From the NCBI GenBank assembly GCA_030425645.1, contig JAUHZK010000008.1:62001-126000 (forward strand): 64,000 nucleotides of DNA, given 5' to 3'. The notes beneath the pieces were generated by a model that saw nothing but the letters and a program-made list of their open reading frames with translations, made no database searches and was not told the DNA's origin. Of this stretch, positions 62,086-64,000 are shown piece by piece. The stretch comes from Gammaproteobacteria bacterium (GTDB lineage Bacteria > Pseudomonadota > Gammaproteobacteria > JAPPPA01). The number at the start of each line of letters is the position of its first letter. Position 1 is the first letter of the stretch. Position numbers and translations under genes: made by a program.

Positions 62086-62477
62086 GGTTTTCCTATTCGC
62101 CCCTCAGTCAAACGACGGCGTTTCCAATCTGCTTAACCAAATTTGCTTTACTGTCGTGGCACTCGGCCGCAGTGAAGACTAAAGCCATGATGGTAATGTA
62201 AAGCACCCTCACAAAACAGATTTCCTTAACGATCTAGGCCTTATAAGCGCCATTTCAGCCTCTGCGAAAAACGATTAAAGACACTGCCCGATCACAGCAA
62301 AACGGGACTGTTAACAAAAACAAAACGGTTATCATCACCTTTGGCGCTTTTTTTTCGACCAATTATCACTTTCAAAAATCACTAAGTGATTGTTATTTAA
62401 AGACACTAAAGCCTCCACATGAAAAATTAGTCGCCCCAACCCTTGTACCTAGCTCTTGGCCCTAATACACTATGCCT
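62086..62477. other. Non-coding stretch upstream of dctP-like gene
   Basis: 392 bases without a gene, A/T-rich in the right part (62280-62430), containing the 5' region of the TRAP gene and, at its end, the candidate promoter TTGTAC (62443-62448) 17-base spacer TACACT (62466-62471) for the RNA that follows. I see nothing else. Confidence 0.4.
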
Positions 62478-62670
62478 TAGCGATCGTACGGTTACCCCAC
62501 CAAGCGGTCGCTTGCTTCAAAGCAAGCGTGACACCCAACGCAGACGACCCCCTGCAGTCACGTTACTTCGTTACCCCACGAATGCTTTGGAGAGCTGTGA
62601 CCAGGCTCCACTACCCCGGGAGCCAATCCAACGGCCTCCGCCCGACCCCGGCGGGGGCCGTTTTCTTTTC
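62478..62670 (+). ncRNA. Candidate small RNA or leader with repeated ACCCC loops
   Basis: From a putative start at about 62478 to an intrinsic terminator. Perfect hairpins on the plus strand: CGCTTGCT-TCAA-AGCAAGCG (62509-62528); GCAG-ACGACCCC-CTGC (62540-62555); TTCGT-TACCCC-ACGAA (62567-62582); GGCTCC-ACTACCCCG-GGAGCC (62604-62624); and the terminator ACGGCCTCCGCC-CGACCCC-GGCGGGGGCCGT (62631-62661, one G-U) followed by TTTCTTTT. Four of these, plus a weak GGT-TACCCC-ACC at 62490-62501, show ACCCC in the loop. No convincing protein frame is present. It could be a stand-alone regulatory RNA or the attenuated leader of the thiolase gene. Confidence 0.6.
62631..62669 (+). terminator. Intrinsic terminator of the candidate RNA
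   Basis: 12-bp stem (62631-62642 with 62650-62661), loop CGACCCC, then TTTCTTTT. It lies 82 bases before the thiolase ATG. Confidence 0.85.
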
Positions 62671-62730
62671 AGCCCCTCATACTTTGTCAGCCACCGGCTT
62701 TACAGCTCAGCGACTGCACTTTACTGTCTG

Positions 62731-62745
62731 CCTTCTTTGAAGGAG
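62731..62745 (+). promoter_or_regulatory. Ribosome site of the thiolase gene inside a small hairpin
   Basis: CCTTC-TTT-GAAGG (62731-62743) overlaps the strong Shine-Dalgarno AAGGAG (62740-62745) seven bases before the ATG at 62752, so pairing would limit initiation. Confidence 0.45.
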
Positions 62746-62751
62746 ATAGGC

Positions 62752-64000
62752 ATGACTCAAGCCCCGTTACTTAAGCGCGTTGCGATTCTAGGTGGCAACC
62801 GAACCCCTTTCTGCCGCGCCTATAGTGACTTTGCTGCGGTCAGTAATATTGAGCTGCTTAGTGCCGCGTTAGCTGGGCTAGTAGAACGCCACCAACTACA
62901 GGGGCAAACTCTGGGTGAAGTCCAAGGCGGTGCGGTCCTTAAACATAGTGAAGACTTTAACCTAGTTCGCGAAGCGGTCTTATCCTCCGGTTTAGCCGCC
63001 GAAACGCCTACCACCGATGTTCAAATGGCCTGCGGCACCGGCTTGCAAGCAGCCTTAAATTTAGCTGGCAAAATCGCCAGCGGCCAAATTGATAGTGCAA
63101 TTGCCTGTGGGGTCGACAGCATTTCTCAGCGCCCGGTCTCGGCCAACAAAGCGCTACATGCAGAACTTAGCGCCACCGCCGGCAAGCCACTTTCGGCATC
63201 GGAGCTACAACAATTATTTGAAAACACACCCGCTCTCGCGATGCCCTACATCCCCGGCGTAGATGAGCGCCGCACCGGCAAAAGCATGGGCCAACACTGC
63301 GAAGAGATGATCACTGAATGGAACATCAGTCGCGCTGAGCAAGACAAACTCGCGCTGGCCTCACACCAGCAGCTAGCGCAATCTATCGCGGATGGGTTTC
63401 ACCAAGACTTAATCAGCCCTTGCTTTGGTGCCGAAGCCGACAATAACCTACGTGCCAACCTGCAAGCGGACAAGCTGGATAGCCTACGGCCGGTATTTTC
63501 GGCCAACGGCAGCATCACTGCCGGCAATGCCAGCGCCTTTACGGACGGAGCAGCCGCAGTGCTCATGGCCTCGGAACAATGGGCCAAAGACCAACAGCTA
63601 CCGGTACAGGCCTACCTCAGCTTCGGCAAAACCGCCGCCGTGAATTTCCAAGACGGCCACGAAGGGCTACTGCTCGCACCGGCCTATGCCGTCAGCCAGC
63701 TACTCGAACATGCCCAGCTATCGCTACAAGATTTTGACTACTACGAAATTCACGAAGCTTTTGCTGGCCAAGTACTATGCACCCTTAAAGCTTGGGAAGA
63801 TCCGCAATTCTGCAAGCAGCGCCTGGGGCGTAGCAGCGCCCTCGGCAGCATTGATCGCAACAAGTTGAACGTTAATGGCTCTTCCTTAGCCGCTGGCCAC
63901 CCCTTTGCCGCTACTGGCGCTCGCATCCTGCCAGTCTTAGCCAAGCTACTCGCTAACAAAGGACAGGGCCGCGGCCTTATTTCGATTTGCACCGCTGGCG
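62752..64000 (+). CDS. Acetyl-CoA C-acyltransferase (FadI-like thiolase), 5' part (partial)
   Basis: Thiolase of beta-oxidation or condensation; the gene runs off the right edge after 416 codons. Start MTQAPLLKRVAILGGNRTPF after AAGGAG. The acyl-accepting Cys94 is in MACGTGLQAALN; the HEAF motif (EIHEAFAGQVL), GHPFAATGAR and SICTAG (second Cys) follow. The RRTGKSMGQHCEEM loop is like FadI-type enzymes that act with FadJ. Probably a stand-alone thiolase; the paired FadJ/FadB-type gene would lie outside the window. Confidence 0.93.
   Translation, partial: MTQAPLLKRVAILGGNRTPFCRAYSDFAAVSNIELLSAALAGLVERHQLQGQTLGEVQGGAVLKHSEDFNLVREAVLSSGLAAETPTTDVQMACGTGLQAALNLAGKIASGQIDSAIACGVDSISQRPVSANKALHAELSATAGKPLSASELQQLFENTPALAMPYIPGVDERRTGKSMGQHCEEMITEWNISRAEQDKLALASHQQLAQSIADGFHQDLISPCFGAEADNNLRANLQADKLDSLRPVFSANGSITAGNASAFTDGAAAVLMASEQWAKDQQLPVQAYLSFGKTAAVNFQDGHEGLLLAPAYAVSQLLEHAQLSLQDFDYYEIHEAFAGQVLCTLKAWEDPQFCKQRLGRSSALGSIDRNKLNVNGSSLAAGHPFAATGARILPVLAKLLANKGQGRGLISICTAG

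Follow-up and report, generated by a model that had tools for sequence, protein, structure and literature searches.

We found that the 64,000-nt stretch of DNA analysed (the window) almost certainly contains a real, conserved gene for a structured RNA, which displays the pentamer ACCCC in five hairpin loops (Table 1). Its conserved structure, conserved loops, terminator and isolated position emerge directly from the computations; it sits in an intergenic region, with a DctP-type gene on one side and a thiolase gene on the other. By analogy with characterised RNAs, it is probably an independent small RNA (sRNA) that would act in trans, with its C-rich loops pairing with G-rich ribosome-binding sites. 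The order of this genome is represented in the collection by two draft genomes, this one and one relative, and in the contig of the relative (L031, public as MAG SB9156_S5_bin_6) the RNA likewise lies before the thiolase gene.

Table 1. Features of the RNA gene and its downstream neighbour (positions in the window).
Feature	Position	Strand	Evidence
Predicted transcript, ~192 nt	62478..62669	+	Identity block compared with flanks; fold z-scores; covariance model match
Promoter-like pair, TTGTAC (62443-62448), 17 nt, TACACT (62466-62471)	62443..62471	+	Sequence and alignment (putative)
Hairpin 1, ACCCC 62494-62498 in loop	62480..62511	+	Folds of both genomes; one consistent stem change (U-G to U-A)
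Three-way junction	62515..62592	+	Both folds; two two-sided compensatory and five one-sided consistent changes, none broken
Junction closing stem	62515-62524/62583-62592	+	
Junction arm A, loop ACGACCCC 62544-62551	62525-62564	+	
Junction arm B, loop TACCCC 62572-62577	62567-62582	+	
Hairpin 4, ACCCC 62613-62617 in loop	62604..62624	+	Both folds; same sequence in both genomes
Intrinsic terminator: 13-bp stem, loop CGACCCC 62643-62649, U tract	62630..62669	+	Terminator scan; same sequence in both genomes
Thiolase gene, extends past window end	62752..63998	+	Pfam PF00108/PF02803

The two copies of the RNA are 92% identical over 62473–62669 and 100% identical over the last 77 nt (62593–62669). 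Outside this block, the identity drops to 61.8% upstream, to 43.4% between the terminator and the ATG, and to 67.5% in the thiolase gene (44% at its third positions). Consequently, the conserved block runs from the vicinity of the expected start of transcription up to the U tract. The promoter-like pair, for which the relative has TTGTGA-17-TAGACT in the alignment, had been located correctly in the first-pass annotation, as had the hairpins and the terminator, but the match of the pair to the consensus is weak. A 9-of-12 consensus scan did not report it in the same analysis that reported the terminator, and for this reason we grade it as a putative promoter. A protein-coding reading was also considered; open frames are present, but two one-base indels and the 100% identical 3′ part argue against it. 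Farther upstream of the putative promoter, TTTTTCGACCAAT at 62340–62365 is unchanged in the relative amid diverged surroundings, and it is possibly a regulator site.

The RNA folds with an energy of −82 kcal/mol (z = −5.4) and the relative's copy with −87.2 kcal/mol (z = −6.1), and all 58 base pairs form in both sequences. The stems hold 10 of the 14 substitutions, and not a single pair is broken. Two pairs changed on both sides (A-U/G-C in the arm A stem and G-C/A-U just below the arm A loop), and six changed on one side. When the same changes were placed at random, about five pairs were broken on average; with placement limited to the variable part, zero broken pairs had P = 5e-5 (1 of 20,000 trials), as judged by a simple test that ignores the history of the sequences. 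A shuffle control on pair changes is powerless with two sequences; two sequences also give little covariation, and in the 3′ part they do not vary at all.

These substitutions also bear on the architecture of the RNA. A plain hairpin previously proposed at 62509–62528 is not conserved (−11.0 kcal/mol here vs. −2.8 kcal/mol in the relative), and its place is taken by the long-range closing stem of Table 1. Consistent changes preserve this stem, and the central part of the RNA therefore forms a three-way junction. Similarly, the element GGT-TACCCC-ACC, described earlier as a weak hairpin, does exist, though not on its own: it is the tip of the longer conserved hairpin 1. In the relative, a neighbouring loop base of hairpin 1 is changed and one base is inserted, and the ACCCC is intact.

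The five ACCCC pentamers start at 62494, 62547, 62573, 62613 and 62645, and all of them lie in hairpin loops of the minimum free energy fold. They are essentially unpaired in the ensemble, except for the last base of the terminator loop (0.52). The loops contain four C residues; one has a fifth C at its edge, which is paired. Among 1000 dinucleotide shuffles, none had five ACCCC in loops (the maximum was three), and none had five anywhere in the sequence. The display of ACCCC in hairpin loops is thus even more pronounced than first claimed. Furthermore, over the 2.06 Mb (75%) of this genome that were scanned on both strands, the RNA locus is the sole cluster with at least four ACCCC in 190 nt. 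Within the same sequence, dense CCCC recurs in one place, a degenerate GGTCTGTCCCCGTTTTTG array of ~150 nt on contig C12, near position 145600.

All five ACCCC are kept in the relative, whose ensemble also leaves them mostly single-stranded. Conservation of the loops against changing stems had been named beforehand as the test of a real regulatory RNA, and this is the pattern seen in the two sequences: the C-rich motif stays unpaired and unchanged while the stems vary. The chance of retaining all five is by itself ~0.23, so the retention becomes telling when it is taken together with the intact stems and the clustering, not alone.

Could an RNA-binding protein recognise the ACCCC loops as identical sites and be titrated by the RNA, which would then act as a sponge? 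An RNA with five identical pentamers, each looped on a rigid stem, is also built as a sponge would be. Pairing with variable mRNAs would not demand so strict an identity of the five sites, and Hfq and CsrA are both encoded in the genome. CsrB and RsmZ, which titrate CsrA via GGA loops, likewise repeat one short motif in many hairpin loops. On the other hand, CsrA recognises GGA and the loops here read ACCCC, so that neither the Csr/Rsm motif nor its protein partner fits. We know of no protein that prefers ACCCC loops, and it appears improbable that the RNA is a decoy whose C-rich loop motif binds a protein for which no such role has been described so far. Moreover, a base-pairing role of C-rich loops has been demonstrated in several bacteria (PMC3771888, PMC10470900, PMC4132741), and we regard a protein-binding sponge as unlikely.

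We also considered whether the RNA controls the thiolase gene in cis, as a leader or attenuator that would sense something and decide on read-through at the terminator. The RNA is upstream of the thiolase gene in both genomes, with the terminator ending ~90 nt before the start codon. The thiolase (77% amino acid identity between the two genomes) stays while the upstream neighbour changes from the DctP-type gene here to an unrelated open reading frame without a Pfam match in the relative (L031, 3–926). However, the terminator stem forms in both folds and no competing anti-terminator was noticed there. Conservation does not extend past the U tract: of the spacer that follows (62670–62751), only the islands GCTTTACAGC and CTTTACTGT, ~21 bp apart, are kept, and these likely form a separate thiolase promoter or operator. 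The thiolase gene is probably transcribed on its own. In addition, the covariance model of the RNA matched at none of 79 thiolase loci in other bacteria (mostly Pseudomonas), and no Rfam riboswitch matched in the window. An attenuator role is, in our judgement, rather improbable.

The RNA appears to be narrowly distributed. Among 369 gammaproteobacterial genomes, the covariance model recovered only the two known copies, and the other 367 had no homologue. The best further match (27.1 bits, in genome G211) combines a coding gene's end with an ordinary terminator; the next two are weaker and located in sequence unlike this RNA. Weak BLAST matches in 56 relatives (L003–L030) are short, with no cluster of ACCCC loops around them. 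The model found no paralogue in the fetched part of this genome, where the RNA is single copy, and searches of phage and plasmid records and of viral contigs (the latter with a 24-base core) were empty.

The RNA had not been recognised as a named class, and the Rfam search agrees, with no match at gathering thresholds in the window. The nearest Rfam model is 6C RNA (RF01066), and 6S RNA (RF00013) has no match in the window, its gene being found elsewhere in the genome (78.5 bits). It is very improbable that the RNA has diverged from a known housekeeping RNA or from actinobacterial 6C RNA. The 6C model reaches 33.6 bits on the final two hairpins (E = 0.0099 when 501 nt are searched) but stays below its 47-bit gathering cut-off, and in the first stem that it matches, several pairs do not form. 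It also belongs to another phylum, with two hairpins of about six C per loop instead of five hairpin loops with four C each.

We therefore return to the trans-acting sRNA with C-rich loops. We prefer base pairing because it has precedent and because the complement of ACCCC is a usable ribosome-site word. An independent gene would give rise to a stable RNA of ~192 nt with its own terminator at the end, and the stems would be scaffolds presenting the five single-stranded loops. Several mRNAs would be blocked in translation by the pairing of one or more loops with a GGGG(U) in or close to their ribosome-binding sites. As in sX13 and 6C/B11, the loops may be partly redundant. That the RNA is transcribed, pairs with mRNAs and represses them, and which mRNAs are its targets, is what we infer from the precedents and the sequence.

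To what extent do the ribosome sites of this genome fit such pairing? Across 1794 predicted start regions, GGGGU is enriched ~2-fold in the last 25 nt before starts compared with further upstream (45 vs. 22), and GGGGA and AGGGG are enriched ~5-fold, more than the modest value for GGGGU. This pattern is as expected for plain Shine–Dalgarno variants. Orthologous start regions in the relative keep GGGGU in 3 of 6 cases, GGAGG in 7 of 10 and all 5-mers in 36%. The earlier proposal that the loops pair with G-rich ribosome sites thus remains plausible through its analogues (PMC3771888, PMC10470900, PMC4132741), but GGGGU is only about 2-fold enriched and is conserved like other ribosome-site words. 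The 16S rRNA is absent from the assembly of this genome (rated 99.5% complete, 16 contigs), probably because of an assembly gap, and for that reason the anti-Shine–Dalgarno tail was assumed.

Candidate targets with long complementarity include a DUF1302 gene, an NtrB-like kinase gene and lptA, whose best duplex energies are about −12 to −16 kcal/mol. The relative's orthologues of all three keep GGGGU at the ribosome site, in DUF1302 and lptA amid changed surroundings. GGGGU is lost in the relative in the gene after DUF1302 and in two further genes, and in cydA the GGGG is kept and the U lost. An envelope regulon was also considered, as 40% of the genes with GGGGU look exported vs. 22% of all genes. 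We dropped this idea because GGGGA, GGGAG and other Shine–Dalgarno words show the same excess of exported genes.

If the preferred reading is true, the C-rich-loop design would have appeared independently in an order represented by two draft genomes, and with more loops and an unusually strict motif relative to the examples compared below. The five loops, being equal and on a single scaffold, would allow a clean test of redundancy against joint action on one mRNA or action on different mRNAs. The case also shows that two genomes of an uncultured lineage suffice to recognise an sRNA of 200 nt, through a conserved block set against diverged flanks.

Within the set of papers searched, there was no ACCCC-loop sRNA tied to Shine–Dalgarno sequences, and the RNA is best read as one that would work like sX13, 6C/B11 and LhrC yet belongs to none of them. 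In Xanthomonas, sX13 has three C-rich loops and represses mRNAs with GGGG near the start, without a need for Hfq (PMC3771888). Like sX13, our RNA is gammaproteobacterial, highly structured and intergenic, with 4C/5C motifs in several apical loops on stable stems. Compared by description, sX13 differs in having three loops, whereas this RNA has five, all of them ACCCC, and a three-way junction. Furthermore, sX13 is reported only in Xanthomonadaceae and adjoins polA (PMC3771888), a gene absent from either side of our RNA.

The second system, B11/6C, acts redundantly through two C-rich loops on G tracts in 5′ UTRs (PMC10470900); for both sX13 and B11/6C, repression was tested by mutating loop and target (PMC3771888, PMC10470900). 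Our RNA resembles 6C/B11 in its C-rich loops on GC-rich stems and in a last hairpin followed by U, and differs in phylum (Actinobacteria) and in loop number and C content, as noted above. In Listeria, the C-rich loops of LhrC pair with G tracts near start codons (PMC4132741). LhrC and the UCCC-loop RNAs of Staphylococcus share with our RNA a C-rich motif repeated within each RNA, including the terminator loop, and they bind G-rich ribosome sites, as we propose here. On the other hand, those RNAs are multicopy, belong to Firmicutes and carry UCCC in place of ACCCC, and one of the three motifs of LhrC lies in a single-stranded stretch, whereas all five motifs of the RNA described here are displayed in hairpin loops.
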